In this document: positions 5,336-24,345 of the stretch, in pieces
Layout of the letters: every line of letters begins with the position of its first letter
Numbering within the stretch: position 1 is the first letter of the stretch
Assembly (NCBI RefSeq): GCF_900109295.1
Contig: NZ_FOIZ01000001.1
Location: 2,302,997 to 2,366,996 of the forward strand
Source: Cognatiyoonia koreensis
Lineage (GTDB): Bacteria > Pseudomonadota > Alphaproteobacteria > Rhodobacterales > Rhodobacteraceae
Length of the DNA: 64,000 nt
Reading direction: 5' to 3'
Notes under the pieces: generated by a model
The model's input: the letters and a program-made list of their open reading frames with translations, nothing else
Database searches by the model: none
What the model was told of the DNA's origin: nothing
Made by a program: the position numbers and the translations under genes

Positions 5336-5345
5336 TGGTATACCA
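5336..5345. promoter_or_regulatory. GntR operator palindrome TGGTATACCA (site 1)
   Basis: A perfect 10-bp palindrome inside the longer symmetric TTTGGTATACCAAAA. It lies between the divergent SDR operon (start 5288) and the RraA-like gene (start 5404). The same decamer recurs in front of the other operons of this region, and it resembles sites described for GntR-type hexuronate regulators (UxuR/ExuR-like). Binding by the GntR protein at 17098 is inferred. Confidence 0.75.
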
Positions 5346-5403
5346 AAAGCAAGCAAATTTCAGCACCTTCGCGAATTTCTAACTATCCCTGAAAGGGCGA
5401 GCC

Positions 5404-6087
5404 ATGATTGAAGACCCAAGACTTCTGAGTATCCGTGAAGGTTTCGCGCGGCCAACAGCAAAGCAAGTCGCTGCGTTTCGCGACGTACCGACAGGTTTTG
5501 TTTGCGATGCGATGGACGGCCGCGGAGGTATGGGAACAGCTATCTCGCCCCTGTTGGACGCCCATATCGTCGGTTGCGCAATCGTTGCTGAAAATGGGCC
5601 AGAGGGGAATCTCGCGACATTAGGAGCGGTACATATCATGCAAGCGGGGGATGTCATCATAGCAGCCATGCGCGGTGGTCAGACTGTTGCAGCTGCTGGT
5701 GACATGGTGCTCGCGATGATACGCAACAAAGGCGGTGCCGGTTTCGTCACGGACGGACCAATGCGCGATCTGACAGGCATCCGCGATGTCGGCCTGCCTG
5801 CCTGGTGTAGCGGATTGAATCCCAACTCTCCCTACGCGACCGGTCCCGGCAGGGTCGGCTACGGTGCAAGTGTCGGTGGGCAGACCGTCGAAAGCGGGGA
5901 CATAATCGTCGCTGATGAAAATGGTGTCGTGGTCGTCCCCCACGCGCAGATTGACACGGTGATTGCCAGACTTGACGCCGTGCGCGCGGCCGAAATCTCG
6001 CTTGAGGCGAAGGTAAAAGCAGGTTTCAGTGAGCAAGCGAAGATCGTAGAAATGCTGGCTGACGGGCGCGCAGTGATCGAGGATTGA
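5404..6087 (+). CDS. RraA family protein (4-hydroxy-4-methyl-2-oxoglutarate aldolase-like)
   Basis: A 227-aa protein of the RraA/HMG-aldolase fold. The typical features are a Gly-rich stretch after a VGCAIVAE strand, GDVIIA near residue 82 and the divalent-metal/substrate motif DGPMRDLTGI around residue 117. In proteobacteria such proteins are either RNase E inhibitors or class II pyruvate/oxaloacetate aldolases. The catabolic setting and the DxxRD-type motif favour an aldolase or decarboxylase that splits a branched or 4-hydroxy-2-oxo acid. It is divergent from the SDR pair and shares their operator at 5336. Its stop codon abuts the stop of the convergent PhyH gene with no spacer. Confidence 0.85.
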   Translation: MIEDPRLLSIREGFARPTAKQVAAFRDVPTGFVCDAMDGRGGMGTAISPLLDAHIVGCAIVAENGPEGNLATLGAVHIMQAGDVIIAAMRGGQTVAAAGDMVLAMIRNKGGAGFVTDGPMRDLTGIRDVGLPAWCSGLNPNSPYATGPGRVGYGASVGGQTVESGDIIVADENGVVVVPHAQIDTVIARLDAVRAAEISLEAKVKAGFSEQAKIVEMLADGRAVIED

Positions 6088-6978: not shown

Positions 6979-6990
6979 TGTCTTCTCCCT

Positions 6991-7914
6991 CTAGTCGCGA
7001 CCCTTCGCAGCCTCGACCTCCATGTCCAAACCATTCATCCGGCCCACGTGATCAATAAGCATCGGGACGAAGTCACCACCCTTTCCGATCGCTTCGACAT
7101 GCGTGAAGTAGTGTTTCGCCGCACCAGCCATGATGTTGACCAGCCCTGCATCTGCCGCCATCGCGTTGACATAGCGCAGGTCCTTTGCGGCATTCTCGAT
7201 TGTGAACTTGTGAACCTCACGATCCCGATCAACCGCATAGGTCATGAAGGTATCAAAGAATCCGTTTGCCAATCGACTTGATCCTATCACCTCGCGTGTC
7301 TTTGCAGGTGGCAAGCCAACGGCTGCGCCAAGCACAGTGGCCTCGGCATAAAGGGCGGCGTAGCTCATCGAAATGAAGTTCATCAACAGTTTCATCTTAT
7401 GCCCGTTACCCGTCGGCCCGACATGCGTGATGTTACCGGCCCAGCACTGCAGCACAGGTTTAATCAACGCAAACGTATCCGCATCGCACCCGACCATAGT
7501 ATCCAGCGTGCCGGCCTCTGCTTCCTTTGGCGTGCGTCCTAAAGGGGCATCGACCATGGTGGCACCTTTTGCGGCTAGTTCACTGGCTAAAACCACTGTC
7601 GAGGTCGGATCTGCGGTCGTCGTGTCAATCACGACCAGCCCATCGCGTGCGCCTGCAAGAATACCGTCTTCGCCACGGATCACCGCTTCGACCTGAGGCG
7701 AGTTTGACAAGCACAAATGAATGATATCGCAGTGCTGTGCCATCTCGCGCGGGGTTGCGGCTTCTAGCGCGCCCTTCGCGACCAAGCTGTCAATCGGCGT
7801 GCGATTAAGGTTGCCTTTGACCCACATTGGATAGCCCGCCTTCATCAAATTGCAGGCCATGCCATGACCCATGAAGCCGACGCCAATGAATCCTATGGTT
7901 TTGTTCTGTGCCAT
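6991..7914 (-). CDS. NAD(P)-binding beta-hydroxyacid dehydrogenase (3-hydroxyisobutyrate dehydrogenase family)
   Basis: A 307-aa member of the 3-hydroxyisobutyrate/tartronate-semialdehyde/threonate dehydrogenase family. The Rossmann motif GFIGVGFMGHGM is at the N-terminus, the substrate-loop motif DAPLGRTPKEAEAG is near residue 120, and the catalytic Lys is in GNGHKMKLLMNF near residue 170. I start it at the ATG at 7914, preceded by AGGGGA. A longer start at 7983 would cover the operator. It is the first gene of an operon with the PhyH oxygenase and is divergent from the epimerase at 8027. The operator at 7973 lies 58 nt upstream. Its likely job is NAD-dependent oxidation of a 2- or 3-hydroxy acid in tetronate or branched sugar-acid breakdown. 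Confidence 0.87.
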   Translation of the reverse strand: MAQNKTIGFIGVGFMGHGMACNLMKAGYPMWVKGNLNRTPIDSLVAKGALEAATPREMAQHCDIIHLCLSNSPQVEAVIRGEDGILAGARDGLVVIDTTTADPTSTVVLASELAAKGATMVDAPLGRTPKEAEAGTLDTMVGCDADTFALIKPVLQCWAGNITHVGPTGNGHKMKLLMNFISMSYAALYAEATVLGAAVGLPPAKTREVIGSSRLANGFFDTFMTYAVDRDREVHKFTIENAAKDLRYVNAMAADAGLVNIMAGAAKHYFTHVEAIGKGGDFVPMLIDHVGRMNGLDMEVEAAKGRD

Positions 7915-7972
7915 GACTTTCCCCTTCAGGCAGGCACCATTGACAAGGCCCCACCAAACCGCATTGTGGAAA

Positions 7973-7982
7973 TGGTATACCA
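7973..7982. promoter_or_regulatory. GntR operator palindrome TGGTATACCA (site 2)
   Basis: A perfect copy, flanked as ATGGTATACCAT, in the 112-bp gap between the divergent dehydrogenase (start 7914) and epimerase (start 8027). It is placed to control both directions. Confidence 0.75.
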
Positions 7983-8026
7983 TCCAAGCAGTCTTGCAAG
8001 GATATGGTCAATCGGGGGAGTGCGGT

Positions 8027-8992
8027 ATGAACATATTGATTATCGGTGGCGGTGGTGTTGTTGGCCAGAAACTGGCACAGGCACTGGTGAAATCGGGCAT
8101 GCTGCGCGGTCAGGCAATCACGCGGATCACATTGGCCGATGTGGTTGATCCCGCGCCTGTGGCCGCCCCCTTCGAAATACGAACAATGATCTGTGACATC
8201 GCGGATCCCGCATCTGTTGCTGAATGTGTCAGCAAAGACACCGATGTAATCTACCTGCTCGCCGCCATCGTTAGCGCCCATGCCGAAGAAGATTTCGACG
8301 CAGGGATGAAAATCAACCTCTTCGGGACATACAACGTGTTGGAAAGATGCAGAGCGCTCGGAACGTCCCCAGTGGTCGTGTTCACATCTTCGATCGCCGT
8401 CTACGGCGGCGAGGCGCAGGATCCGTTGGGCGATCACAGCTTTCCCAATCCGCAGACGTCTTACGGCATGCAAAAAGCAGCTGGCGAACTGTTTATCAAT
8501 GACTATTCGCGCAAAGGATTCATAGATGGCCGTGCGTTCCGCCTGCCCACAATTTCAGTACGTCCCGGCAAGCCGAACAGGGCGGCCAGTAGTTTCATGT
8601 CCTCGATCTTGCGTGAACCTCTGAATGGCCAAGAAGCTGTCTGCCCGGTCGATGCCGATTTCCTGCACTATTATCTCAGCCCGCGCCGCTGCGTTGATAA
8701 CCTGATCAAAGGAGCAGAGCTCGCCGGCGATGATATCGGGCAGAACCGTGTTATGCAGATGCCGGGCACGTCTTTATCAATCAAGCAGCTGATCGATGCC
8801 ATGACCGCCGTGGCTGGACCTGAACCTGCCAAATTGATCCGTTGGGACGCGCAGCCTGATATCAAGAAGATCGTCTCTGGCTGGCGATGGGACATTCATG
8901 CCGATAAGGCAGAACGTTTGGGCCTGAAGGCAGATGACAGTTTTGAAGACAACATCCGCTACTATTTGGAAGACGACAAACCTGCAGCCTAG
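8027..8992 (+). CDS. NAD-dependent epimerase/dehydratase, D-erythronate dehydrogenase-like (DenD-like)
   Basis: A 321-aa extended SDR. It begins MNILIIGGGGVVGQ (Rossmann GxGxxG variant), has TSSIAVYGG near residue 125 and the catalytic pair in SYGMQKAAGEL near residue 147. The ATG at 8027 has GGGGGAG 7 nt upstream. Earlier in-frame starts would run through the operator. The family includes DenD, which oxidises D-erythronate to 2-oxo-tetronate and is usually found beside OtnK-type four-carbon acid kinases and LtnD-type dehydrogenases, both of which have relatives in this region. The assignment to erythronate is by family and context only. It overlaps the convergent RuBisCO-like gene by 4 bp. 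Confidence 0.8.
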   Translation: MNILIIGGGGVVGQKLAQALVKSGMLRGQAITRITLADVVDPAPVAAPFEIRTMICDIADPASVAECVSKDTDVIYLLAAIVSAHAEEDFDAGMKINLFGTYNVLERCRALGTSPVVVFTSSIAVYGGEAQDPLGDHSFPNPQTSYGMQKAAGELFINDYSRKGFIDGRAFRLPTISVRPGKPNRAASSFMSSILREPLNGQEAVCPVDADFLHYYLSPRRCVDNLIKGAELAGDDIGQNRVMQMPGTSLSIKQLIDAMTAVAGPEPAKLIRWDAQPDIKKIVSGWRWDIHADKAERLGLKADDSFEDNIRYYLEDDKPAA

Positions 8993-10248
8993 CTACGTGT
9001 AACGGCTGATTTGAAAGTTACCAGGGCTGTCGCCAGCTCTGGGTGTTCCTTGGCGTATTCTTCGACGCGAACACCCTCCTTTTGGGCTGCAGCGGCTTGG
9101 CGCAGACTGGTGATGCCAGCGGCTGGTCCATCCGGATGGCTCATGATCCCCCCACCTGCACAAAACAAGAAATCGTCATTGCCAAGCAGTTCCATGGTCG
9201 GACCAACCTGCCACGCGGTCTGCCCCGACGAAAATACAGGCAGCGCACGATGTGGCACTGTGTCGTTTAGCGGGGCCTGCACGGCGCGCGCGGCCTCTGT
9301 TACGACAGCATCCGTTTCAGTAAACTTATTGGCCAACCCATTTACGTGCAGATGGTCAGCTCCGGCCAACCGCCACATTTTCTGCATCACCGGAAAGGCG
9401 ATCCCGATGTGAGGCGAGCGTGACAGCAGGCCCCAGCCGTTGCGATGCGCATGAATTGGCAACGGACTGTGATCGCGGACAGCACGCAGGCCAGCCAAGC
9501 CAATGGAATGCAGTGATACCATCGCGCAAGTGGCTCCAAGGCTATCAAGTAGGTCCAGGTTCCGACGCATCGCGTCAATCTCGTCAGTGATGTTGAAGGC
9601 GTACATCACCTTACGCCCGTCCTTTTGGGCCGCTGTATCGATGGCTTGCATCACCTGCCGGGTGCGATCCTCAAAAGGACATGCAGGTCCATTGCCCTGC
9701 AATTCGTCGTCTTTGACAAAATCAATTCCGGCGGCTGCCAGATCGGAAACAAGGGCTGCGGTTTGTGATGCGCTAAGTCCGACACTCGGCTTTACGATTG
9801 TGCCGATCATCGGCCCACTGTCCACGCCCATCAATGCCCGCGTCCCGCTGATCCCGTATTGCGGACCAGGACAGGCTTGCGCAAGGGCTTCGGGGACATC
9901 CAGACCGACAAGACGGATTGCCGAAAGCTCTGCCAATTCGAACAAATTGCCCGCGATCGTGGCCAGAATATTTGTTAGTGACGGGCCAAAATTGTCCATC
10001 GGCCAGCTGATCGTCACGCGGCCTTGTTCATATGTGACGCCACTTAAGCGGCAAGGTAAAGCGGGATGATCGGCCGAACCGGTGATCGTCACCGCCTCAA
10101 TCCGCGCGGCAGATTTGTCACGCAAAGCATCGGTCTCGGACGCAAGACGGCTAAATGTCCCTGTAGACTGCTCGCCTGCCATGACCTCCGCCGCGCGCTG
10201 GATCCCCACCGGACTTTCGATGTCATAAGTTGCCTGTAGCCGCGTCAT
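8989..10248 (-). CDS. RuBisCO-like protein, probable 3-oxo-isoapionate-4-phosphate decarboxylase/transcarboxylase (OiaX/OiaT-like)
   Basis: A 419-aa RuBisCO large-chain homologue of the RuBisCO-like class. It keeps the loop GTIVKPSVGLS, with Lys153 in the place of the RuBisCO catalytic Lys175 and Ser155 where a second Lys is usual. It also keeps the metal-site block FVKDDE with the carbamylatable Lys179, Asp181 and Glu182, then HAHRNGWG around 266, FSSGQ around 340 and GGGIMSHPDG around 365. The ATG at 10248 overlaps the kinase stop as ATGA. Next to a DUF1537 kinase and an ApnO-like dehydrogenase, this fits the D-apionate route. There OiaX decarboxylates 3-oxo-isoapionate-4-phosphate to L-erythrulose-1-phosphate, or OiaT cleaves it to phosphoglycerate and glycolate. 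Sequence alone does not separate OiaX from OiaT. Carbon fixation is not expected. Confidence 0.85.
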   Translation of the reverse strand: MTRLQATYDIESPVGIQRAAEVMAGEQSTGTFSRLASETDALRDKSAARIEAVTITGSADHPALPCRLSGVTYEQGRVTISWPMDNFGPSLTNILATIAGNLFELAELSAIRLVGLDVPEALAQACPGPQYGISGTRALMGVDSGPMIGTIVKPSVGLSASQTAALVSDLAAAGIDFVKDDELQGNGPACPFEDRTRQVMQAIDTAAQKDGRKVMYAFNITDEIDAMRRNLDLLDSLGATCAMVSLHSIGLAGLRAVRDHSPLPIHAHRNGWGLLSRSPHIGIAFPVMQKMWRLAGADHLHVNGLANKFTETDAVVTEAARAVQAPLNDTVPHRALPVFSSGQTAWQVGPTMELLGNDDFLFCAGGGIMSHPDGPAAGITSLRQAAAAQKEGVRVEEYAKEHPELATALVTFKSAVTRS

Positions 10249-11576
10249 CTCTCGCCGCCTCCGTCCAGAACCCATCCAAAATAGTCGCGACTGCCCATTT
10301 GACCGCCTTTCAGTGCCAGTGTCAGCGGACTTGCACGACCGTGAGCATTGCAGATCGCGGCACCCGGGATCGTCGGAGCCGCAGCTGTCAAAGCATCAAT
10401 TCCCAAAGCTTTGCAGACATGGCCTGACGTATCGCCTCCCGATACGACGGCTCGATCCAGACCGGCCTTATCGACAAGCTGCTCCAGAATCCGTCCCAGT
10501 GCGGCACCGATGTCGTCGTTCACCTGCACAAGCTGATCGCCAGCAGCTGCGCGCAATTGTGCGACCGCAGGATCATCAGGACCGCGAGCGGTATAGATTA
10601 TGGGGACTTGCCCATGTACCAAAGACTGCAGTGCAAGTTCTAAAGCGCGCGCTTCCGCATTGGCAAGATCGCCACCACATACTTGTGTGACATCCAGTCT
10701 TATGTCAGCAAAACCGTTATCCAGCGCCCAAGTGATCTGATCTGCTGTCGTTGAAGAAACTGATCCGGACACAACAGCCATCCGCTCCGCACGTCCGATT
10801 CCGCTCACCGTCGGGGCGTGCTGCAATAGCCCAATTTTTTGGAAATGTGCAACCAAAGCGTAAGCAATCCCTTGTGAACCGACAACAAACCGGTTGTGAC
10901 CGTTCCACAGCAACGCACCCGCCGCTCTGACATCCTGCGGACCCATCTGATCGATGGTTACACCGCCCTTCCCGGCTTTAAGCATCGCGCAGGCGCGAGA
11001 AGGCTCAGCCAGAGTTTCCAGATCAAGACATTGGATCACTATATCCGTTTGCTGCGCCAAATGCAGCGCAACGTCGGCCTCGTCCATCGGGGTCACTGGA
11101 TGGCGCGTCATGACAGGGTGCCGATCCAACCGGAAGACGCCCGCATCCGTTCCGGCAAACAAGGTCCCAAAAGCCTGATATCGCCGCATTTCTGGAGCCG
11201 CGATCATGATCGGGATGGTGGTCGCGCCAAAAATCGCAGCCCCGATATCCATGGCTTTTCCAATTGAACCGACATGCGGCGCGGAATCGAGCGTAGAGCA
11301 TGTTTTGTATTGCACAAGCCGCGCGCCGGTTTGTGCAAGTAATTCGAACTGCGCGGGCAAATCCCGTTCCATGCGCGCGGGACTATAGGTGCGCGCCATG
11401 CTCGCAATTCCAATTCCTTGCATACGCGGAAAATCGGCCATCCGCTCCGGGCTTGGCGTATCCAGAAACAAGACAGCAGGCAGATCTGCGAATGCAAACA
11501 CCTCCATCACGGCGGCAGCGCCAGTGAAATCATCGCCAAGCCAGGCCAATACAGGTGTATCAGGCAGCGCGCTCAT
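10245..11576 (-). CDS. four-carbon acid sugar kinase family (DUF1537), 3-oxo-isoapionate kinase OiaK-like
   Basis: A 443-aa kinase of the OtnK/DUF1537 family. The N-terminal signature LGDDFTGAAAVMEVFA is at residues 13-28, and the nucleotide-binding VVSGGDTSGHVCKALG is near residue 385. Family members phosphorylate 2-oxo-tetronates, 3-oxo-tetronates or 3-oxo-isoapionate. The gene lies between an ApnO-like dehydrogenase (its ATG at 11576 directly follows that gene's TGA) and the RuBisCO-like gene (4-bp ATGA overlap). That is the order expected for dehydrogenase/isomerase, kinase, then decarboxylase, so OiaK is the best fit. A DenK/OtnK role on tetronates cannot be excluded. Confidence 0.85.
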   Translation of the reverse strand: MSALPDTPVLAWLGDDFTGAAAVMEVFAFADLPAVLFLDTPSPERMADFPRMQGIGIASMARTYSPARMERDLPAQFELLAQTGARLVQYKTCSTLDSAPHVGSIGKAMDIGAAIFGATTIPIMIAAPEMRRYQAFGTLFAGTDAGVFRLDRHPVMTRHPVTPMDEADVALHLAQQTDIVIQCLDLETLAEPSRACAMLKAGKGGVTIDQMGPQDVRAAGALLWNGHNRFVVGSQGIAYALVAHFQKIGLLQHAPTVSGIGRAERMAVVSGSVSSTTADQITWALDNGFADIRLDVTQVCGGDLANAEARALELALQSLVHGQVPIIYTARGPDDPAVAQLRAAAGDQLVQVNDDIGAALGRILEQLVDKAGLDRAVVSGGDTSGHVCKALGIDALTAAAPTIPGAAICNAHGRASPLTLALKGGQMGSRDYFGWVLDGGGER

Positions 11577-12407
11577 TCAGGTGATACGCTGGATGCTGGC
11601 AGCAATTTCATCCGGTTCAAACACCTTTTTCCAATCGTCGCGCATCAATGCAGGTTTGCCAAATTCAATCGCCTTGTTGCATGCATCAGAGAATACGCCG
11701 TCAATTTCTTCAAAGATGACCGCCCCCAAGATGTTCATATGACCCAGCAAAAAATCGCGTGCGGCATCCTTCGGCACGCCACGGCGGACGACTTCATCCA
11801 TTGCCTCGCGCATGACATCAAGAAGTGAGGCGCATACGGTCTCCGACAAACCCGGCTCCAGCAAGGCCATCTGTTCAACCGTAACACGGTAGCTGCGGGC
11901 GACAGGCGCATAGATCGCACGGCCCACTTTTTCACCAAGGGCATAGTGATCTTCGGGGCCTTGCATCAACGCATTAACGATACCCTGCCGCGCCGCAATT
12001 CCACCAAAATAGTCCTTGCGACCTGCCTCTGTCTGCTCGTCGTTGTAGATTGGGGGATGACATGGGTGCGTGACGAAATAGGTGACATCATCCCGTTCGG
12101 GCAAATGACCGGCGAACGGACCAGCGGCATCCAAACAGACAATCATTGCACCACTTGGGACTTTATCGATGATCGACGCGGCAACCGCCTTGATCGCAGT
12201 ATCGGGCACCGCCAGCAATATGACATCGGCTCCGTCCATTGCGTCATCAATTTCAACGCAGTCGACGCCGACAGCCTCTTTCAAACGGGCGCGCCCGGTT
12301 TCCGAAATCTCGACATGGGCTACATCGAAATCCGTCTTTGCAAGGTTCGTCGCACTGCGGACACCCATCTTGCCGCCTGCCCCCATCAAAACCAGCTTCT
12401 CGGTCAT
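11577..12407 (-). CDS. ApnO-like D-apionate oxidoisomerase (phosphogluconate dehydrogenase C-terminal domain family)
   Basis: A 276-aa protein with an N-terminal Rossmann domain (LMGAGGKMGVRSATNLAKT) and a C-terminal helical domain of the PGDH_C type, in which DFLLGHMNILGAVIFEE is characteristic. THPCHPP, near residue 105, is a conserved substrate-side loop. I start it at the ATG at 12407, with GGAG 8 nt upstream; a GTG at 12419 is also in frame. The family includes ApnO, which oxidises and isomerises D-apionate to 3-oxo-isoapionate. It abuts the kinase and follows a DMT transporter by 15 nt. The function is inferred from family and neighbours and was not tested. Confidence 0.78.
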   Translation of the reverse strand: MTEKLVLMGAGGKMGVRSATNLAKTDFDVAHVEISETGRARLKEAVGVDCVEIDDAMDGADVILLAVPDTAIKAVAASIIDKVPSGAMIVCLDAAGPFAGHLPERDDVTYFVTHPCHPPIYNDEQTEAGRKDYFGGIAARQGIVNALMQGPEDHYALGEKVGRAIYAPVARSYRVTVEQMALLEPGLSETVCASLLDVMREAMDEVVRRGVPKDAARDFLLGHMNILGAVIFEEIDGVFSDACNKAIEFGKPALMRDDWKKVFEPDEIAASIQRIT

Positions 12408-12422
12408 AGCGCTCTCCACTCT

Positions 12423-13380: not shown

Positions 13381-14976
13381 TCACAAGAACACAGTGATGA
13401 TGTTTGGCCAGATCAGCAGAACGGTCAGCGCACAAAGCTGCAGCGAGATGAAGGGCAGGAAGCCTCGGAAGATGTCTGTCAGGGAAATCTCGGGTGGTGC
13501 TACGGACTTCAGGTAGAACGCGGCAGGACCGAAAGGCGGCGACAAAAAGCTGACCTGCATGTTCATACAGAACACAACGCCGAACCAGATCGGAATATAG
13601 CGCGCATCAATGCTGCCAAGGAAACCGATCTCTTCCGCAGGCAGGCGGACAACAATAGGCAGGAACACGGGCATAATCAGCAAGACAATGCCGACCCAAT
13701 CCATGAACATCCCCATGATCAGGAAGACCAACATCATCATTAGGATGATCCCCATTGTCGGCAACTCTGCACCGATGATTAGGTTCGCCACATACGTCGG
13801 CCCTCCCACCAGTGTGTAGGCTGCAGCCAGTGCTGCCGCACCGATCGTCACCCAGATGATTGTCCCTGTTGAACGCAAGGTTCTAATCAGGCTGTCCCAG
13901 ACGATATCAAATGTCATTTCGCGGCGGATCATACCAATCGCGAATACTGCAATAACCCCCATCCCAGCCGCTTCCGTGATGCCGGTAATACCGCCATAGA
14001 TCGACCCAAGGACGACACCAATCACGACAGTTGGCGCGATAAGACCTTTGCCCATGTTCCAACCACGTGAAGTCCGTTCCCGACCCACAACGACGAAGAC
14101 AATCAACGCAAACAGGATGAATGCACCAATGATCCACGGGATGTCGGCCACCATGCCAAGCGGGATCGGATCTTCACCTTCGCGAATTGCGTTGTCACCT
14201 GTAGCCGTAAAGAACAACGCGCGTGCTAGCAAAACGCCTGTGACCCACATCGCAAACCGTGACACGAACCCGAGGAACATCAGCCGCTTTTCGTTGCCTT
14301 CAGGCTCACCTGGAACCGGATCGGGCAATGGGGCGAGCGATGTGTTCATCCGCGTCCGGATTACAATATAAAGAATAAAGAACGACGCGAGCATGAAACC
14401 CGGCAAGAAGGATGCGGTGAACAGAGCTTTGATCGACGTCTCGGTGACCAGACCATAAAAGATCAAGACGATAGATGGCGGGATCATCGTTCCAAGCGAA
14501 CCAGAAGCACAGATCGTACCGATTGCTAGATTGCGATCATACCCAAGGCGCAACATTTGCGGCAAGGCAATCAGGCCCAGAAGGACGACTTCGCCTCCGA
14601 TAATACCGGACATCGCGGCCATGATGACAGCCATGATCGACGTTGCGACGGCAATGCCGCCCCGTGTCCGGTTCATCCAGACGTTCAGTGATGAATACAT
14701 ATCGCGCGCAATGCCGGATCGCTCCAGCATTGCGGCCATGAATATGAATAAGGGCACCGATATCAGAACATAATTCGTCATTTGTCGGTAAACCGCCTGC
14801 CCGAGTACGGACAAGGGGCCGCGCCCGAAATCCCCCCACAAAAGGTCAGGTGGAAATTTCAGTGCAAGCGTTACAACAGCAAGAAATGCAGAGGCAAAAC
14901 CGAGCGGCATCCCGATGGACAGCAAAAAAAACATGCCCAACAGGATGATTAGGGAAAGCGTGCCAATATCGACCAT
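13381..14976 (-). CDS. dctM: TRAP transporter large permease subunit (DctM)
   Basis: A 531-aa polytopic membrane protein of the TRAP DctM family, starting MVDIGTLSLIILLGMFFLLS. It contains the conserved loop GSLGTMIPPSIVLIFYG near residue 155 and GMFMDWVGIVLLIMPVFLPI near residue 425. It is about 100 residues longer than the common 425-residue DctM. The excess is an insert around residues 205-300 with a charged stretch (GEPEGNEK) and extra membrane segments, as in the long-form TRAP permeases. Its ATG overlaps the dctQ stop (TGATG), so the two are translationally coupled. With DctP and DctQ it would import a sugar acid using the sodium gradient. Confidence 0.93.
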   Translation of the reverse strand: MVDIGTLSLIILLGMFFLLSIGMPLGFASAFLAVVTLALKFPPDLLWGDFGRGPLSVLGQAVYRQMTNYVLISVPLFIFMAAMLERSGIARDMYSSLNVWMNRTRGGIAVATSIMAVIMAAMSGIIGGEVVLLGLIALPQMLRLGYDRNLAIGTICASGSLGTMIPPSIVLIFYGLVTETSIKALFTASFLPGFMLASFFILYIVIRTRMNTSLAPLPDPVPGEPEGNEKRLMFLGFVSRFAMWVTGVLLARALFFTATGDNAIREGEDPIPLGMVADIPWIIGAFILFALIVFVVVGRERTSRGWNMGKGLIAPTVVIGVVLGSIYGGITGITEAAGMGVIAVFAIGMIRREMTFDIVWDSLIRTLRSTGTIIWVTIGAAALAAAYTLVGGPTYVANLIIGAELPTMGIILMMMLVFLIMGMFMDWVGIVLLIMPVFLPIVVRLPAEEIGFLGSIDARYIPIWFGVVFCMNMQVSFLSPPFGPAAFYLKSVAPPEISLTDIFRGFLPFISLQLCALTVLLIWPNIITVFL

Positions 14977-15788
14977 CAGTTCTTTCCCTCAAGGGTACGG
15001 CGGATGTTTTCGATTTCTTCTTCGTCAATTTCATCTGCGGGTGTGTGGACTTCAGGTTCCTTATTCCAATCCGCAATCAGATTTGACACAGCCTGAATGC
15101 AGACCAGCACAATGATGATCAGAAGCGCCGGTTTGACGATACCGGGAATGGGTGGATCCCACGCCGTGCCAAAAGTCTCCATTCGCAAAAAACGGTTTTC
15201 AGCGTCAGTGTAGCCGCCCCAGACAAGTGCAAAGGTAAACCCGACAATCAGCAGAACCGAAATGCAGTCGGATGTCTTCTGCATCCACCAAGGCATCAGG
15301 TCGTAAATGATGTAAATGCGGATGTGACTGCGTTGCTGCATCGCGTAGAGCCCCGCAAACAGGAAAACAAAACACGCAATCCAGAGAGAGAGTTCATTGG
15401 CCCATAAGGTGGGTTTGGAAAAGACGTAGCGCGACACAACCTCGTAGAACATCACGAGCACAATGAACGCAGTCATGATCATCGCTAGGCGGCCGAGCAC
15501 GACGGTCACAAGATCGAAAAATCCGTCCGGCGGCGTCTCGATCGCCCCCTTGCTGTCCGATAAAAAAAGCGATGCAAACAAAAGCGCGATGCCGAACACG
15601 ACAAGGGTCAGCTGCACGAGCGGCTTACCTCCCGGTCGGATCATCTCGAACATGCCATATGACTCTTCAAGAAAGATGCGTTGGCCGACCAGCAGAACGT
15701 AAAGCGCAACTGTGATTGCACAGAATACGATCATCGCGATCTTCACAGGCCCCCGCAACCGCCCAAGAAATAGCGAATTTTCCTGCAT
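14976..15788 (-). CDS. dctQ: TRAP transporter small permease subunit (DctQ), long form
   Basis: A 270-aa membrane protein. The C-terminal part carries the DctQ signature (FYEVVSRYVFSKPTLWANEL, then four helices). The N-terminal 100 residues add about two more membrane segments before a short soluble loop, which makes it larger than the usual 160-220 residues. The tail is acidic (DEIDEEEIENIRR). I start it at the ATG at 15788, preceded by GGGGAGG at a good distance; a GTG at 15803 overlaps that site and is less likely. It couples to dctM by TGATG and is separated from dctP by a terminator-like hairpin. Confidence 0.88.
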   Translation of the reverse strand: MQENSLFLGRLRGPVKIAMIVFCAITVALYVLLVGQRIFLEESYGMFEMIRPGGKPLVQLTLVVFGIALLFASLFLSDSKGAIETPPDGFFDLVTVVLGRLAMIMTAFIVLVMFYEVVSRYVFSKPTLWANELSLWIACFVFLFAGLYAMQQRSHIRIYIIYDLMPWWMQKTSDCISVLLIVGFTFALVWGGYTDAENRFLRMETFGTAWDPPIPGIVKPALLIIIVLVCIQAVSNLIADWNKEPEVHTPADEIDEEEIENIRRTLEGKN

Positions 15789-15821
15789 TACATGCCTCCC
15801 CACATGGTCATGACGTCGGTT

Positions 15822-15852
15822 GAAAAAGGCGGGCCCGGTTGGACCCGCCTTG
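15822..15852 (-). terminator. intercistronic terminator/attenuator between dctP and dctQ
   Basis: Read on the minus strand, the arms AAGGCGGG and CCCGCCTT form an 8-bp GC-rich stem, extended through a short imperfect inner stem, and are followed directly by TTTTT. It lies 29 nt after the dctP stop and 33 nt before the dctQ start. Partial termination here would give more periplasmic binding protein than permease, as in many binding-protein transport operons. Confidence 0.75.
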
Positions 15853-15881
15853 ATCTTATCTGGTCAAGCTAGGCGACCCGA

Positions 15882-16898
15882 TTACCCGCCAATCAAACCC
15901 AGCTGGGTGAGGTAGGCCTTGTGGCTTTCTACAAGCGCACCGGCTTCGGGGCTGCGTGTTGCCCAGTCATCCCATGCAGCCTGCGCTGCCACGCGGAATG
16001 CGGCGCGATCTTCATCAGACCAAGCGTACAGTGTCACGCCCTGTTCCTGCAAGGCAGCGGCTGCTTCTGTGTTGGCTTTCTCATTGGCCATCGCAATCTG
16101 GAATGAAAGCTTCTGCCATGCCGTGTCAATGATGCGGCGATGCTTTTCGTCCAGACCGTCCCAGACAGCCTGGTTACAAGCCAAGTGGTCAGACGGCATG
16201 GAGTGGAAGCCAGGATAGTTGGCGTGCTTGACGATATCATACAGACCAAGTCCAACGTTATTGGCGAGGCCGGACGCGTCCGCTCCGTCGATGATGCCAG
16301 TCTCAAGCGCCGTAAAGATTTCGGTGAAATCCATCACGATTGGCGATGCGCCGAGCTTTTCAAAGATTTCTGTTTCCATGCCCGGAGGGGACCGGAATTT
16401 CCAGCCAACAAGGTCGTCTGGACCTGCGATTGGCTTGGACGATGCAAAGGATTCCTGACCATAGATGGCCCACCCGATCAACTGCATGCCTTGAGCGTTA
16501 TACAGCTCTTGTGCGGCCTCATAGCCGTCGCCGTAATACAGCCAGCTATACTGCTGCCACGGTGTGTCATAGCCACCCATAATGTCGCCGACAAACTGGA
16601 ACGCAGGGTTCTTACCAGTCTGATATGCACCGCCAGTCGCGTCACAATCCAGAATGCCGTTGATTGCTGCATCAAAGGTTTCAACAGTCGCAACAACTGA
16701 AGAAGAATAGAACATCTCGATGGCGATCTCGCCGCCGGACATGGTCTGAACGTCGTCGATCCATGTGGCGAGCATCTTCCCAGTTGGGTGCTCGGTCGCG
16801 TAGTGGGTTTGAATACGCAGTGTCACGTCCTGAGCCACGGCAGCGCCAGCCAGCACGACGCCGGCGACAGCCGACATCAATAATGTCTTAAGTTTCAT
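15882..16898 (-). CDS. dctP: TRAP transporter substrate-binding protein (DctP)
   Basis: A 338-aa periplasmic solute receptor. The signal peptide is MKLKTLLMSAVAGVVLAGAA, with cleavage after AVA. The mature protein has the DctP fold, including GWKFRSPPGMETEIFEKLGA, which holds the conserved substrate-carboxylate Arg, and TEIFTALETGIIDGAD near residue 200. I prefer the ATG at 16898, 9 nt behind GGGAGG, because the ATG at 16907 sits directly on that site. It is the first gene of the long operon, divergent from the GntR regulator, with two operator palindromes in the shared gap. The ligand is a carboxylate sugar, identity unknown. Confidence 0.93.
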   Translation of the reverse strand: MKLKTLLMSAVAGVVLAGAAVAQDVTLRIQTHYATEHPTGKMLATWIDDVQTMSGGEIAIEMFYSSSVVATVETFDAAINGILDCDATGGAYQTGKNPAFQFVGDIMGGYDTPWQQYSWLYYGDGYEAAQELYNAQGMQLIGWAIYGQESFASSKPIAGPDDLVGWKFRSPPGMETEIFEKLGASPIVMDFTEIFTALETGIIDGADASGLANNVGLGLYDIVKHANYPGFHSMPSDHLACNQAVWDGLDEKHRRIIDTAWQKLSFQIAMANEKANTEAAAALQEQGVTLYAWSDEDRAAFRVAAQAAWDDWATRSPEAGALVESHKAYLTQLGLIGG

Positions 16899-16973
16899 GT
16901 ATTTCATCCTCCCTTGGCAGGTTTGCCCTGCCGTTTACCGTTTTCACACATCCTCCCAGAGCGTGAATCGCGA

Positions 16974-16983
16974 TGGTATACCA
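16974..16983. promoter_or_regulatory. GntR operator palindrome TGGTATACCA (site 3)
   Basis: A perfect copy, flanked as ATGGTATACCAT, 76 nt before the dctP start in the gap shared with the gntR gene. It is the dctP-proximal one of a pair whose starts are 55 bp apart. Confidence 0.75.
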
Positions 16984-17028
16984 TCTGCCCCGACGTTACT
17001 GACTGCTCGCTCGACAAGCAACAAGTTT

Positions 17029-17038
17029 CGGTATACCA
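17029..17038. promoter_or_regulatory. GntR operator, one-mismatch copy CGGTATACCA (site 4)
   Basis: This copy differs from the other six at one position (T to C). It lies 60 nt before the chosen gntR start and is probably used for autoregulation. With site 3 it could allow looping or cooperative binding between the divergent promoters. Confidence 0.6.
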
Positions 17039-17097: not shown

Positions 17098-17793
17098 ATG
17101 CAAGACCAAACCTTGCCAGAAAACATTGCGAACCGGCTTCGGCGCGACATTCTGCGGGGTAAGCTTGTGCCTGGCGATTCACTCAAGGAACGCGACAGCG
17201 CAGCCGAACTTGGTGTCAGCAGAACCCCCATGCGAGAGGCGATCCGTATCGTCGCACGTGAAGGTCTGATCACGCTTCGCCCCGCCCGAAGTCCAATCGT
17301 GGCAGTGCCCGATGTGAAAGCAGTGACCGACGATGTCGAGGTCCTTCTGGCGGTCGAAAAACTATCCGCTGAACTTGCCTGTGCCCGAGCGACCGTTGCG
17401 GAAGTCGATGAAATTGCCGCAATCCTAAAGCGTATGGACGACAATTTCGATACGATGGATCCGCTGGATATGTTCGAGATCGACATGAGCTTCCACTCAG
17501 CCATCGCGAAAGCGTCCCATAACGAGCCCCTTGCCGAAATACATGGACGGTTTCTCGCTCGATTGTGGCGCAGCAGGTTCCTTGCCGCTATGAAACGGCG
17601 CAATCGTGCCAGCGTGATCAAACATCACACCGGCATACTTGCAGCACTGCGTAAGCGTGACACCGTGGCAATCAGAAAAGCGATCAGCATTCACCTCGAT
17701 CAACTGACAGAGGACATCGTGCAGGTCATCCGAGACGAAAACGAACTACGCGAACAACGCAATGCCAAAACAGCAAATGATCTATCAGCTTAG
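17098..17793 (+). CDS. GntR family transcriptional regulator with FCD domain
   Basis: A 231-aa FadR-subfamily regulator. The N-terminal winged helix holds SAAELGVSRTPMREAIRIVA, the classic GntR recognition segment. The C-terminal all-helical FCD domain carries likely metal/ligand residues: Asp and His in FEIDMSFHSAIA, His in VIKHHTGI and His in AISIHLDQL. The ATG at 17098 has GGAAAGGA about 5 nt upstream. An ATG at 17080 is possible and would add six residues. It is divergent from dctP, with two palindromes between them. It is the only GntR regulator in the window, so it is the natural candidate to bind all seven TGGTATACCA sites, released by a sugar-acid effector. Confidence 0.92.
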   Translation: MQDQTLPENIANRLRRDILRGKLVPGDSLKERDSAAELGVSRTPMREAIRIVAREGLITLRPARSPIVAVPDVKAVTDDVEVLLAVEKLSAELACARATVAEVDEIAAILKRMDDNFDTMDPLDMFEIDMSFHSAIAKASHNEPLAEIHGRFLARLWRSRFLAAMKRRNRASVIKHHTGILAALRKRDTVAIRKAISIHLDQLTEDIVQVIRDENELREQRNAKTANDLSA

Positions 17794-17809
17794 AACTGCG
17801 CGAGGCAGA

Positions 17810-18565: not shown

Positions 18566-18574
18566 GTGATGCTC

Positions 18575-19621: not shown

Positions 19622-20459
19622 CAGGCTTCCCCTTGTCCAATATCTCCAACGCCCGCGCCCACTCGTCCGGCTCGACACGCACGAAATGCGTGATCTCGCG
19701 GTCTTCCAGAAACGGTACGCCTTTGCACATCTTGGTCTGGCAAATAATAACGCGCGGTACTGGATCGGGATGTGCGCGGGCGGCATCAAACGCTGCGACG
19801 ACAGCGTCCATATCGTTGCCATCGACTTCTTGCGCAAACCACCCAAAACCCTGCCATCGTCCGACTTCAGGAACCTGTGCAAGCGCCGCAGTGGTCTTGC
19901 CGTCCGCTTGTTGGTCATTGAAATCAACTATTGCAATCAGGTTATCGAGCTTCCACTGAACGGCCGACATCACTGCCTCCCACGTGGATCCTTCACCAAG
20001 CTCTCCGTCCGATAGCATATTGTAGACAAAGGCCGGATTATTCTTGCGTTTGAGGCCCAGCGCCATCCCAACCGCGATCCCAAGCCCGTGGCCAAGCGAC
20101 CCGCCGGTAATTTCCATTCCCGGCGTGTACGCCGCCATGCCGGACATCGGCATGCGGCTATCATCCATGCCATAGGTCTCGATCTCGGTGTCTGGCAAAA
20201 TGCCCGCTTCGATCATGGCAGCATAAAGGGCGATAGCATAATGCCCGATTGACAGCAGGAACCGGTCGCGACCTTCCCATTCGGGATCATCAGCGCGATA
20301 GTTTAACGCATGAAAATAGGAGACGGCCAAAACATCGGCCACGCCCAGCGCCTGTCCGATATACCCCTGTCCCTGCACCTCGCCCATCAACAGGGCGTTG
20401 CGCCGAATTGCATACGCCCGGCGCGCCAAACTAACATTCGCTCTGTCGTGTTCCATCAT
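19614..20459 (-). CDS. transketolase N-terminal subunit (thiamine diphosphate-binding half)
   Basis: A 281-aa protein with the thiamine diphosphate motif SDGELGEGSTWEA near residue 150, ending in the Asn of VDFNDQQ. The upstream GGSLGHGLGIAVGMALG is typical of transketolase N-terminal halves. The start at 20459 is followed at once by a second ATG, and GGGGAGG lies upstream. It is the first gene of the operon with the C-terminal half and an SDR. The TGGTATACCA site at 20518 lies 59 nt upstream, so the operon should respond to the GntR regulator. Confidence 0.92.
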   Translation of the reverse strand: MMEHDRANVSLARRAYAIRRNALLMGEVQGQGYIGQALGVADVLAVSYFHALNYRADDPEWEGRDRFLLSIGHYAIALYAAMIEAGILPDTEIETYGMDDSRMPMSGMAAYTPGMEITGGSLGHGLGIAVGMALGLKRKNNPAFVYNMLSDGELGEGSTWEAVMSAVQWKLDNLIAIVDFNDQQADGKTTAALAQVPEVGRWQGFGWFAQEVDGNDMDAVVAAFDAARAHPDPVPRVIICQTKMCKGVPFLEDREITHFVRVEPDEWARALEILDKGKPDD

Positions 20460-20517: not shown

Positions 20518-20527
20518 TGGTATACCA
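20518..20527. promoter_or_regulatory. GntR operator palindrome TGGTATACCA (site 5)
   Basis: A perfect copy in the 86-bp gap between the transketolase operon start (20459) and the end of the upstream beta-hydroxyacid dehydrogenase gene (20546). It serves the transketolase-SDR operon. Confidence 0.75.
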
Positions 20528-20545
20528 TTCCCTGTGAAACTCCAC

Positions 20546-21445
20546 TCATGTTTGCTTTGGCAGCGTCAGGCCCGCATTGCGCGCGTAAACCTTGGCAACA
20601 GCAGAGTCATGTTCGCCGCCAAGGCCAGACCCGGATGCCGCCAAGTACTGTTGCAAGGCCGCCGCTGTGATCGGCGCAGAGAACTTTGCACTTTTTGCGA
20701 TATCGAGGACGATCCCAAGGTCTTTTGGCCATATGTCGACCGCACTGAGTGGCCGGTAATCGCCGTTGACGATCGAAGGCGCGCGGCTTTCCAAGGCCCA
20801 GCTGTTACCTGCACACTGGGTGATTACTTCAAGGAATTGTGCGGGTTCCACACCTTGGGTCATGCCAAAAGTCATGGCTTCGGCCATAGCGGCGATCTGT
20901 ACGCCAGTCAGCATTTGATTGACAGCTTTCATTGATGACCCTGCGCCTGCAGCGTCACCAAGGCGGAATACCTTGGCGGACATCGCATCAAGCACCGGCG
21001 CAGCCTTTTCGAACGCTTCGGGCACGCCGGCAGCCAGAATGGAAAGCGTGCCTTCACCCGCTTTGATCGTGCCACCCGATACGGGGGCATCAATATAGAG
21101 CAAACCCAGTTCGGCGCAGCGCGCTTCCATGGACCGCGCGAAATCAGGGGCGACCGTTGCGCATGCAACTACAGCTGTCCCCTTGGCCAATTTTACTGCG
21201 ATACCGTCAGCACCAAAGAGCACGGCCTCGGTTTGGGCCGCATTCACAACGACGATGACCGCAGCATCAAGGGTGGCGGCAACGTCTTGGAATGCACCAA
21301 GTGCGCCGCCTTCATTCTGAAACCGCGTCATCGCATCGGTATTGATATCATAGCCATACGTCTTCAGACCGGCACGAACCAATGCCCCTGCCATACCATA
21401 CCCCATGGCCCCAAGACCAAAAATCGCCACTTGGTAGTCAGACAT
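20546..21445 (-). CDS. NAD-dependent beta-hydroxyacid dehydrogenase (L-threonate dehydrogenase LtnD-like)
   Basis: A 299-aa member of the 3-hydroxyisobutyrate dehydrogenase family. It has IFGLGAMGYGMAGAL at the N-terminus, DAPVSGGTIKAGEG near residue 122 and the catalytic Lys in GSSMKAVNQMLTG near residue 172. The ATG at 21445 follows GAGGGGGG. The DAPVSGG loop and length fit the LtnD/GarR branch, which oxidises tetronates such as L-threonate or reduces tartronate semialdehyde. Its own operator is at 21476, 30 nt upstream, so it is a separate transcription unit in the same regulon. It is not a recent duplicate of the 6991-7914 gene, because the substrate loops differ. Confidence 0.85.
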   Translation of the reverse strand: MSDYQVAIFGLGAMGYGMAGALVRAGLKTYGYDINTDAMTRFQNEGGALGAFQDVAATLDAAVIVVVNAAQTEAVLFGADGIAVKLAKGTAVVACATVAPDFARSMEARCAELGLLYIDAPVSGGTIKAGEGTLSILAAGVPEAFEKAAPVLDAMSAKVFRLGDAAGAGSSMKAVNQMLTGVQIAAMAEAMTFGMTQGVEPAQFLEVITQCAGNSWALESRAPSIVNGDYRPLSAVDIWPKDLGIVLDIAKSAKFSAPITAAALQQYLAASGSGLGGEHDSAVAKVYARNAGLTLPKQT

Positions 21446-21475
21446 CACGGCCCCCCTCAAACATTCTCAAAAAAA

Positions 21476-21485
21476 TGGTATACCA
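21476..21485. promoter_or_regulatory. GntR operator palindrome TGGTATACCA (site 6)
   Basis: A perfect copy, flanked as ATGGTATACCAT, between the LtnD-like gene (start 21445) and the stop of the Gfo/Idh/MocA gene (21511). It controls the LtnD-like gene. Confidence 0.75.
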
Positions 21486-21510
21486 TCTCTCTGGCAAAGC
21501 CCAGACGACT

Positions 21511-22518
21511 TTAGTGGCCAGAAAGTAAACCTAGCCGCGCACGTAATTGTGCTTCGATTTCCAGTGCGATGGCCAAGGTCCGGGTCGCGTCTGCAACGTC
21601 GATCAAAGGTGTGGCACCATTCATCACTTCGAGAAAATGATCCAACTGTGCGTGCAAGGGCTCGGCCGTGTTTACAGCGACATCTACAGGGGTGCGCTTC
21701 GCGGCTTGTCCCCATGCGACGCCCTGCCAAAGCGACATCGACGGAAAACTGATTCCGCCTTTGGAGCCTGTGATCCACATCATGTCCTGACCGGTCGTAC
21801 CGATATTCGGGTTCTCGCCGGTTCCAGCCTCAAAACCCCATGGGCTTGGGGCTGTGTCTGCAAAGCTGATCGTCGCCGTGGCACCGCACTCAAGACGCAA
21901 TGCAATCGCACCGCTTTCGATCCGCCCATCTCTGCGCAACGACTGTCCAGGCAAACAGACAACCTCCGCAATTTCTCCTAAAACAAAACGCAGAATATCG
22001 ATGTCATGAACGAGGTTGATAAGAACCGGAGACCCGCCAGCAGTGCGCCAGTTCCCTTCAAAATACGTGTCCGGCTTGCGCATGGCCCAGATCAGCGTGG
22101 CCGTGACTGGCGTGCCGATCGCCCCTTCGGCAAGCATGGCACGCAATTGGCGAACCGAAGCGTGATAGCGGCGGTGGTGCCCGACCAAGGATTGCACTCC
22201 GGCTTGCGTCAGGGCCGCTTGCATCACGTCCGCTCCGCCCACGTTGTCCGACACAGGCTTTTCGATCAACACATGCCAACCACGTTTAGCGGCCGTAACC
22301 CCATGGGCCGTATGCAGCCCCGTCGGAGTCGCGATAATCGCGCCGTCTACGCCATCGGGAACATCGTCCATGTCCGCAAAACGCGCAACATCAGCACCCG
22401 CATCGATGCGCATATCCGGATCGACAAGACCAACAAGCTCGCAGTCGTGATGGGCCTGCACAGCTTTCACTTGACGGATACCGATCAGGCCGCCACCGAC
22501 AACAACGATCCGTTTCAC
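21511..22518 (-). CDS. Gfo/Idh/MocA family oxidoreductase
   Basis: A 335-aa protein with an N-terminal Rossmann fold (VVVGGGLIGIRQ), the NAD-side IATPTGLHTAHG, the catalytic Lys region HVLIEKPVSDN near residue 92 and the C-terminal Gfo/Idh substrate domain. I choose the GTG at 22518, which overlaps the upstream dehydratase stop as GTGA. An ATG at 22539 is also in frame. The family oxidises sugars or inositols, often to lactones, and includes D-apiose dehydrogenase ApsD. Given the apionate-type genes at 8989-12407, an apiose or related aldose dehydrogenase is possible, but no ApnL-type lactonase is visible. The substrate is open. Confidence 0.85.
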   Translation of the reverse strand: MKRIVVVGGGLIGIRQVKAVQAHHDCELVGLVDPDMRIDAGADVARFADMDDVPDGVDGAIIATPTGLHTAHGVTAAKRGWHVLIEKPVSDNVGGADVMQAALTQAGVQSLVGHHRRYHASVRQLRAMLAEGAIGTPVTATLIWAMRKPDTYFEGNWRTAGGSPVLINLVHDIDILRFVLGEIAEVVCLPGQSLRRDGRIESGAIALRLECGATATISFADTAPSPWGFEAGTGENPNIGTTGQDMMWITGSKGGISFPSMSLWQGVAWGQAAKRTPVDVAVNTAEPLHAQLDHFLEVMNGATPLIDVADATRTLAIALEIEAQLRARLGLLSGH

Positions 22519-24023
22519 ATCACCGCACCAATCTGCCACGGCACGAATTCATAGTCTCCCAAACCTTGCGCTTCTGATTTGCTTGCCTCACCCGACGCGA
22601 CACGCAGGAACAGATCATAAATCTCGCGACCCTTCTCTGCGACACTGACACCGCTACTCAGGATCGTCCCGGCATCGACGTCCATGTCTTCGGACATGCG
22701 CACAGCCATCTCGGTATTCGTGGCGACTTTGATTGTCGGGCTTGGTTTCGAGCCGAACGCCGACCCCCGCCCGGTGGTAAAGCACACCAAATTGCAGCCA
22801 CCCGCGATTTGTCCCGTGACAGACGCCGGATCATAGCCGGGGCTGTCCATGAACGTGAAACCGCGGGCGGTCACCTGTTCTGCGTATCTGTAGACTCCGG
22901 TCAACGGCGTCGTGCCTCCCTTGGCCACAGCGCCCAACGATTTTTCGAGGATCGTCGTCAAGCCACCCTTCTTGTTGCCAGGCGAAGGATTGTTGTCCAT
23001 CGAACCACGATTGCGTGCGGTGTAGTCTTCCCACCAGCGGATCAGCGCGATCAGCTTGTCACCGACCGCACGGTCAATCGCCCGCCGAGTGAGCAGGTGT
23101 TCGGCCCCGTAAACCTCGGGTGTTTCGGCTAGAACTCCAGTACCACCTTGCGCCACCAATAGATCACACGCATAGCCTAGCGCTGGATTGGCAGTAATGC
23201 CCGACCACGCATCTGATCCCCCACACTGAAGTGCGACCTTTAATTCCGAAACCGGACAGGCCGTTCGTTTTGCCTGATTTGCAAGCGGCAGCATGGCTGC
23301 AACCTTTTCGATACCCAATTCAACAGTGCGGCGCAGGCCCGCGACGTTCTGTATATTCATTGTCTGGAACAAGGGCCCCTGTTTGAGCCCCCAGGCATCC
23401 AACAACCAGTCGATCTGGTTCATTTCACAACCCAGACCAACCATCAGCACACCGGCATGGTTGGGATGACGCGCATAACCCCACATAACGCGTTGCAACG
23501 CCTCAAAGCCGTCTCCATCACCGGCCATACCGCAGCCGGTGCCGTGTACGAAGGCCGCGACGCCATCCACGTTCGGGTAATCTGCAAGGACGTCGGGCGT
23601 GAAATGGTCTGCGATCATCCGCGCCGCCGTCGCTGAACAATTTACTGAAGTGACAATTGCGATATAGTTGCGCGTTCCGACGCTCCCGTTGTCCCGTCGA
23701 AAACCCATGAACGTATCACGTTCGTGTTCCGGTACTGCTGTTACAGGACGCAAGTCGGTCGCAAATTCATAATCCGCATCGGTCGCGCGAAAGGCGACAT
23801 TATGCGTATGCACATGTTCACCCGATGCAATGTCCTGTGACGCAAAACCGATGACTTGGGCATACTTGCGCACCGCCTCACCCTGGTTGATGGACGCGGT
23901 TGCGATCTTGTGGCCGGATGGAATAAGGCCAGAAGTCTGCACTGACTCGATCGCAGTGTTCGCCGCAAGCGATCGCGTAGCAGTTACAACATTGTCGGAC
24001 GGGTCAAGACGCACGCAATCCAT
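22515..24023 (-). CDS. altronate dehydratase family protein (UxaA-like)
   Basis: A 502-aa protein joining an N-terminal SAF-type domain (residues about 1-80, with HTHNVAF) to the C-terminal UxaA/GarD catalytic domain. Landmarks are RRDNGSVGTRNYIAI near residue 104, FVHGTGCGMAGDGDGF near residue 155, GGSDAWSGITANPALG near residue 270 and NLVCFTTGRGSAFG near residue 410. Family members are iron-dependent dehydratases of D-altronate or D-galactarate that yield 2-keto-3-deoxy acids. I start it at the ATG at 24023 with GAAGG upstream. An open frame to 24137 would include the operator. It is the first gene of an operon with the Gfo/Idh/MocA gene; the operator at 24122 is 99 nt upstream. Confidence 0.9.
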   Translation of the reverse strand: MDCVRLDPSDNVVTATRSLAANTAIESVQTSGLIPSGHKIATASINQGEAVRKYAQVIGFASQDIASGEHVHTHNVAFRATDADYEFATDLRPVTAVPEHERDTFMGFRRDNGSVGTRNYIAIVTSVNCSATAARMIADHFTPDVLADYPNVDGVAAFVHGTGCGMAGDGDGFEALQRVMWGYARHPNHAGVLMVGLGCEMNQIDWLLDAWGLKQGPLFQTMNIQNVAGLRRTVELGIEKVAAMLPLANQAKRTACPVSELKVALQCGGSDAWSGITANPALGYACDLLVAQGGTGVLAETPEVYGAEHLLTRRAIDRAVGDKLIALIRWWEDYTARNRGSMDNNPSPGNKKGGLTTILEKSLGAVAKGGTTPLTGVYRYAEQVTARGFTFMDSPGYDPASVTGQIAGGCNLVCFTTGRGSAFGSKPSPTIKVATNTEMAVRMSEDMDVDAGTILSSGVSVAEKGREIYDLFLRVASGEASKSEAQGLGDYEFVPWQIGAVM

Positions 24024-24345
24024 TTCACACCTTCGCTTTGCAAACCGGCGTGTCACCGCCACGCGCTCAAAACGGTAAGAGCGCGAGCGACGGCTCACAA
24101 GCCGGAAAATGAAATTCGTTTTGGTATACCAAAACAAAATATAGCGCGTATAGTGCCGCAGAACCGAAGCCAGTGCCGACGTGAAAACATGTCAATAAAT
24201 CAAATGAGCCAGACAGGTCGACATAACCATTGCGTCACATTGGCGAAGGCAGCAGAAGGCTGTTCGGCAAAGGCCAATCTGTCACCATTGACAGCAAACA
24301 AACGCAAGGACTCACCAACGCTGAACAGGGTCTGGGGGGATATCC
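24024..24345. other. divergent intergenic regulatory region
   Basis: These 322 bp separate the UxaA-like operon (minus) from the SDR-IlvD-FAH operon (plus). They hold the operator palindrome at 24122-24131 and an AT-rich run just after it. I see no convincing gene; short open frames here lack ribosome sites and family features. Confidence 0.6.
24122..24131. promoter_or_regulatory. GntR operator palindrome TGGTATACCA (site 7)
   Basis: A perfect copy within TTGGTATACCAA, 99 nt before the UxaA-like start and 215 nt before the start of the plus-strand SDR at 24346. It is the right-hand end of the operator set. Confidence 0.75.

Follow-up and report, generated by a model that had tools for sequence, protein, structure and literature searches.

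The regulators of the FadR subfamily of GntR proteins recognize, as far as the accessible part of a comparative survey describes them (PMC4494728), TKGT/ACMA boxes that in some groups (GntR, HpxS, HypR, MdcY, PrpR and UxuR) are separated by a 2-bp gap; the survey also names, as a known type for FadR- and HutC-type regulators, divergent operons with two sites between them. On the enzyme side, the available text on Herbaspirillum huttiense describes an L-2-keto-3-deoxyfuconate (L-KDF) 4-dehydrogenase that also binds D-2-keto-3-deoxypentonate (D-KDP) (structure 8xwk; PMC11199699), and this short-chain dehydrogenase/reductase (SDR) clusters with a D-arabinonate dehydratase of the UxaA/GarD superfamily (PMC6336799). 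We analysed a stretch of 64,000 nucleotides from Cognatiyoonia koreensis (the window; contig NZ_FOIZ01000001.1, forward-strand positions 2,302,997 to 2,366,996), in which copies of a palindromic decamer, TGGTATACCA, lie in front of sugar-acid operons and next to a gene for a GntR regulator with an FCD domain (gntR, 17098..17793, plus strand). We consider it likely (probability of about 0.85) that the decamers are operators of the 17098 protein, which would be an autoregulated, probably metal-dependent, carboxylate-sensing repressor of the FadR type that controls sugar-acid uptake and catabolism.

The locus shares much with the systems of that survey, within what its accessible part covers. As in the 2-bp-gap FadR regulators, a helix–turn–helix domain is combined with an FCD domain, TGGT/ACCA boxes that fit the TKGT/ACMA pattern flank 2 bp, a site lies near the regulator's own gene and divergent operons are involved; as in the FadR/HutC double-site divergons, the operon of the regulator and the divergent structural operon are separated by two sites, with one site plausibly assigned to each operon. 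Given that FadR boxes, the 2-bp gap and divergent double sites have already been described, this is a system of a known kind. Unlike those divergons as described, the twin sites here have a nearly fixed spacing (54–58 bp in 49 of 53 two-site loci) around a conserved promoter block, and unlike the named 2-bp-gap regulators, the 17098 protein remains under the cut-off of every named NCBIfam regulator model (UxuR, 37.5 bits against 442; phnR_burk, 79.6 against 271.5). Literature searches for TGGTATACCA gave no title on a bacterial regulator among the matches listed, and none in combination with GntR; among the matches listed for longer palindromes together with UxuR/ExuR, none held those palindromes, and searches for GntR with TRAP, sugar-acid or Rhodobacteraceae, or with D-arabinonate, listed nothing on this regulator. 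No paper on it was found in the literature, a search that did not extend to RegPrecise or the supplement of PMC4494728, where the group may already have an entry.

A search of the window at up to one mismatch gave exactly seven matches, six of TGGTATACCA (starting at 5336, 7973, 16974, 20518, 21476 and 24122) and one of CGGTATACCA (17029). The initial annotation had placed all seven at these positions and none elsewhere in the 64 kb; its view that a perfect decamer is rare by chance agrees with 100 dinucleotide-preserving shuffles of the window, which yielded a mean of 0.51 matches (largest, 2) even with one mismatch allowed. Across the genome (3,648,231 bp in 4 contigs), all six exact copies lie inside the cluster, and the equal density genome-wide that had been named as counter-evidence is not seen. 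Allowing one mismatch, the genome holds 33 matches—the six exact copies and 27 one-mismatch sites, 26 of the latter outside the cluster—against 71 for a reversed control pattern, so the outside sites look like background. Ten of these 26 were scored with a 16-bp matrix built from sites of relatives, a matrix that favours the cluster sites because its source sites were picked for the core GGTATACC: nine reached 3.1–13.9 bits, compared with 17.7–26.1 bits for the seven cluster sites, and eight of the nine lie inside an open reading frame (ORF) of at least 150 codons.

The motif also follows the regulator across the family. Decamer counts cover 295 genomes (294 genera) of the family, 57 of which encode a homologue of the 17098 protein at E ≤ 1e-30. 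All 36 genomes with a close homologue, C. koreensis included, carry at least two decamers (mean, 5.75), where 'close' means E below 1e-54, a cut placed after viewing the list, at the point where E values jump from 3.8e-55 to 4.4e-50. At least two decamers are found in 7 of the 21 genomes that have a weaker homologue only (mean, 1.14) and in 39 of the 238 that have no homologue at E ≤ 1e-30 (mean, 0.79); a Mann–Whitney test on the decamer counts, with the C. koreensis genome left out, gave p = 1.1e-22. Because the weaker-homologue genomes are near background (1.14 versus 0.79), the motif tracks this close group rather than FCD proteins as a whole, which supports the proposal in the initial annotation of a real regulon under one GntR regulator. 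In the 35 other close-homologue genomes, the decamer occurs 201 times and the reversed control 60 times; 199 of the 201 copies (5 of 7 for genome G237) entered a count of nearness, by which 130 lie within 50 kb of the regulator gene on the same contig and 29 of the 35 genomes have a copy within 1.2 kb of it, both counts being lower bounds because the contigs are draft. The only other sampled genome from the genus (G249) lacks both the decamer and a homologue at E ≤ 1e-30.

In 80 loci around relatives of gntR (1.46 Mb in all, centred on gntR, some ending at contig edges), largely from genera that, going by record titles, we take to be Rhodobacteraceae, the decamer is present 164 times, compared with a single occurrence of the reversed pattern. 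For 156 of these 164 decamers, the start of a homologue of a cluster gene from the window (tblastn E ≤ 1e-15, no identity floor) is no more than 330 bp away; the remaining eight neither have such a neighbour nor fall within one of these homologues. The list of neighbours is headed by dctP (117) and gntR (116), in part an effect of centring the loci on gntR; next come IlvD (9), HIBDH and DenD (5 each), then SDR_b, LtnD and 2HADH (4 each), and others. The regulator and decamers were also found in three loci (L052, L059 and L113) titled Oceanospirillaceae (metagenome-assembled genomes) and Tistlia consotensis, occurrences that may reflect transfer or, for the metagenome-assembled genomes, mislabelled bins.

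Upstream of gntR, two GGTATACC cores are present in 53 of the 80 loci, one in 16 and none in 11. Aligned twins share conserved blocks in the order GATGGTATACCATC, ACGcTA, TCGACAATCAA and TTTTGGTATACCAAAT. The blocks were counted in 53 pairs with a spacing of 50–62 bp, taken from any part of the loci and from the window, a set that differs from the 53 two-site loci. With up to three mismatches allowed, 49 of these pairs contain TCGACAATCAA, in 47 of them placed exactly 18 bp ahead of the right operator; shuffled spacers contain it, at any position, in 6% of cases. ACGNTA precedes the right operator by 36–37 bp in 48 of the 53 pairs, a count made without a shuffle control. Variation in spacing falls mainly between ACGNTA and the left operator. 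Strict helical phasing of the twin sites was dropped, because the spacings range from 54 to 58 bp. In two loci with a spacing of 111 bp (L118 and L123), no third degenerate site was found midway at up to four mismatches.

On the strength of this conservation, the spacer reads as a pair of divergent promoters of the sigma-70 type whose −35 boxes interlock. The rightward promoter would consist of TCGACA (putative gntR −35, at the conserved TCGACAATCAA; 17011..17016, plus strand), 17 bp and a −10 box within the right operator, the candidate CGGTATACCA at 17029..17038 (17.7 bits), whose C recurs in the same operator of loci L046, L047, L048, L050 and L051. The leftward promoter would consist of TTGATT (TTGCTT in the window, putative dctP −35; 17016..17021, minus strand), 17 bp and TANCGT (TAACGT, putative dctP −10, matching the conserved ACGNTA; 16993..16998, minus strand), with the candidate left operator TGGTATACCA (16974..16983) just past the predicted dctP start. 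If the spacer is read as two interlocked divergent promoters, each twin site probably silences one of them.

The regulator itself (231 amino acids) belongs to the FadR subfamily by its domains, with PF00392 at 57.9 bits (cut-off, 27) and PF07729 at 87.5 bits (cut-off, 24.3). Asp129, His133, His177 and His199 are invariant in all 16 aligned sequences (the window protein and 15 of the 80 relatives), and this Asp-x3-His, His, His pattern is what we take to be the metal site of FCD domains. The Escherichia coli UxuR motif probably resembles the decamer. In the mechanism that we propose, a ligand-free dimer on each palindrome would block the adjacent promoters, including that of gntR; a carboxylate, probably a sugar acid or an early 3-deoxy-2-keto intermediate, would be held with the metal in the FCD domain and cause release, upon which the tripartite ATP-independent periplasmic (TRAP) importer and the flanking sugar-acid enzymes would be expressed together. 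At the twin, the left site would cover the dctP start and the right site the gntR −10 box, with the two interlocked −35 boxes between them.

Several observations weigh against assigning the decamers to this repressor. Before gntR, 11 of the 80 loci lack a core and 16 have a single one; the four two-site loci outside the narrow range have spacings of 23, 60, 111 and 111 bp; and five of the 80 loci have no decamer at all. Among the 35 close-homologue genomes other than C. koreensis, six have no copy within 1.2 kb of the regulator gene, and one, G088, lacks any copy on that gene's contig up to 50 kb away. Four genomes without a regulator homologue (G063, G106, G136 and G217) carry 5, 4, 7 and 4 decamers, so another protein may use the decamer there. 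The initial annotation called gntR the only GntR-FCD gene, which is correct for the window; the genome has 11 FCD genes, ten besides this one. Before another of these GntR-FCD genes stands the tenth of the scored outside sites, TCGTATACCA (position 1170 of locus L127; genome C2:325931), at 17.7 bits the equal of the weakest cluster site. The protein encoded there is 29% identical to the 17098 protein over 143 residues, and such a distant paralogue with a near-match before it makes cross-talk or a sister specificity possible. The FCD paralogues, the TCGTATACCA site and the four homologue-free genomes are also what speaks for a different transcription factor, such as a second FCD protein, reading the decamers while the 17098 gene is a passenger of the cluster. 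We regard this as quite improbable: the motif follows close homologues of the 17098 gene and not weaker ones, site pairs precede its relatives in most of the 80 loci, and the L127 paralogue is so dissimilar.

Somewhat less improbable, though still unlikely, is that the same regulator acts at the same sites by activating some promoters, or in both modes. The right operator lies directly upstream of the putative dctP −35 box at a fixed distance, as an activator site would, and could activate from there; the left operator at the predicted dctP start and the right operator over the predicted gntR −10 box fit repression, and most catabolic regulators of the FadR type are repressors. That the copies arose by chance, or are a dispersed repeat with no regulatory role, is hardly credible: nothing was found in its favour, and against it stand the shuffled expectation, the confinement of the exact copies to the cluster, their co-occurrence with the regulator, the conserved twin, flanks that differ among the seven sites and positions that recur before the same genes across genera.

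Gene starts were taken as downstream ATGs chosen from the appearance of the N terminus, and operon membership is predicted. With these starts, each site fronts one or two operons and, judged by position, almost every gene between 3810 and 29763 comes after a site. The statement in the initial annotation that all sites are intergenic holds for these starts; the longest mechanical ORFs cover several of the sites. The candidate operator TGGTATACCA at 5336..5345 (26.1 bits) lies between an SDR pair (4554-5288, minus strand) and an RraA-like gene (5404-6087, plus strand), and that at 7973..7982 (21.7 bits) between a 3-hydroxyisobutyrate-dehydrogenase-like gene (6991-7911, minus strand) and a D-erythronate dehydrogenase gene (8027..8992, plus strand; NF043036, 395.9 bits, cut-off 325). 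The twin separates gntR from the TRAP transporter and the EamA, PGDH_C, OiaK-like kinase and RuBisCO-like genes. Further candidates stand at 20518..20527 (19.0 bits), in front of an operon of an SDR and a split transketolase (17810-20459, minus strand), and at 21476..21485 (23.7 bits), in front of an L-threonate dehydrogenase gene (20546..21445, minus strand; NF043037, 395.8 bits, cut-off 350). The last, at 24122..24131 (25.3 bits), has to its left a minus-strand operon of a UxaA/GarD-family dehydratase with a Gfo/Idh protein and to its right a plus-strand operon encoding an SDR, IlvD, a fumarylacetoacetate hydrolase (FAH)-family protein, 2HADH and an enolase. That the sites front sugar-acid operons, as first proposed, is borne out by the erythronate and threonate dehydrogenases, both of which exceed curated cut-offs and mark D-erythronate / L-threonate catabolism.

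Around the regulator's relatives, homologues at 45% identity or more were counted, of 80 loci, for DctP (68), DctQ (66), DctM (66), the FAH-family protein (61), the UxaA-family dehydratase (55), EamA (50), the SDR of 24346 (45), each transketolase half (22), DenD (10), the RuBisCO-like protein (8) and the OiaK-like kinase (8). The SDR and the two-gene transketolase remain linked next to gntR in roughly one locus in four. The nearest solved relative of DctP, a component of the transporter (dctM, dctQ and dctP, 13381..16907, minus strand), is 4pe3, followed by ABC-type, ketoacid- and lactate-binding proteins, a mixture from which the TRAP ligand cannot be fixed.

The sugar-acid dehydratase (22515..24023, minus strand) matches PF20629 and PF04295 and, at 380.2 bits, is short of the galactarate dehydratase model (cut-off, 730.85). 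The nearest solved structure to the SDR (24346..25092, plus strand) is the H. huttiense L-KDF 4-dehydrogenase 8xwk (284.4 bits), and that to the FAH-family protein (26901..27746, plus strand) is L-2,4-diketo-3-deoxyrhamnonate hydrolase (8gsr, 345 bits); the latter protein scores 437.3 bits against NF053535 (cut-off, 500). On the basis of these relatives and of the SDR–dehydratase clustering in H. huttiense, we propose that the cluster holds a Route III core of dehydration, 4-oxidation and hydrolysis to pyruvate and a hydroxy acid. As in H. huttiense Route III, to the extent that the available text covers it (PMC6336799, PMC11199699), a UxaA-family dehydratase occurs together with an SDR and a FAH-family protein, here a putative 4-dehydrogenase and a putative hydrolase; unlike that system as described there, the route here is predicted from genes and would come with TRAP uptake, GntR control and extra modules.

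One of these modules is an operon of a RuBisCO-like protein, an OiaK-like kinase and a PGDH_C protein (8989..12419, minus strand). As with the D-apionate pair OiaK/OiaX of NCBIfam, genes for a RuBisCO-like protein and a kinase from these families are neighbours, but here their scores of 413.2 (OiaK) and 386.2 bits (OiaX) fall short of the cut-offs (700 each). The substrate is therefore probably not D-apionate, and the operon possibly acts on a new one. The nearest solved structure to the RuBisCO-like protein is 3nwr, whose name gives no function, and literature searches on apionate and RuBisCO-like proteins gave no useful pathway paper among the matches listed.

Elsewhere in the window, an open frame of more than 1,200 codons runs off the edge (2-3634, minus strand) and contains repeated GGDGxD-like stretches, presumably as in RTX-type calcium-binding proteins. 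At 51854-63786, integrase-like ORFs flank ORFs that by eye resemble a type I restriction–modification system, and this region is perhaps a defence island. No Rfam match was found in the window.

The odds seem even to us that the regulators form an undescribed group acting as the only master switch of a sugar-acid island built from modules, in which the TRAP importer and Route III core are common, lineages add modules (erythronate/threonate dehydrogenases, the RuBisCO-like protein with the OiaK-like kinase, the split transketolase) through the same decamer, and the regulator's own promoter is a fixed device. If so, with two operators around interlocked divergent promoters, one geometry would set both importer and regulator. 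The motif is so restricted that a single 10-mer scan retrieves the regulon in this genome, and with it a set of enzymes whose substrates probably belong to one group; it ties an uncharacterized RuBisCO-like protein, an OiaK-like kinase, a split transketolase and several dehydrogenases to sugar-acid breakdown. The acid that releases the regulator would offer a direct route to the substrate, and the conserved promoter geometry would provide a clean case of one repressor setting two divergent promoters.

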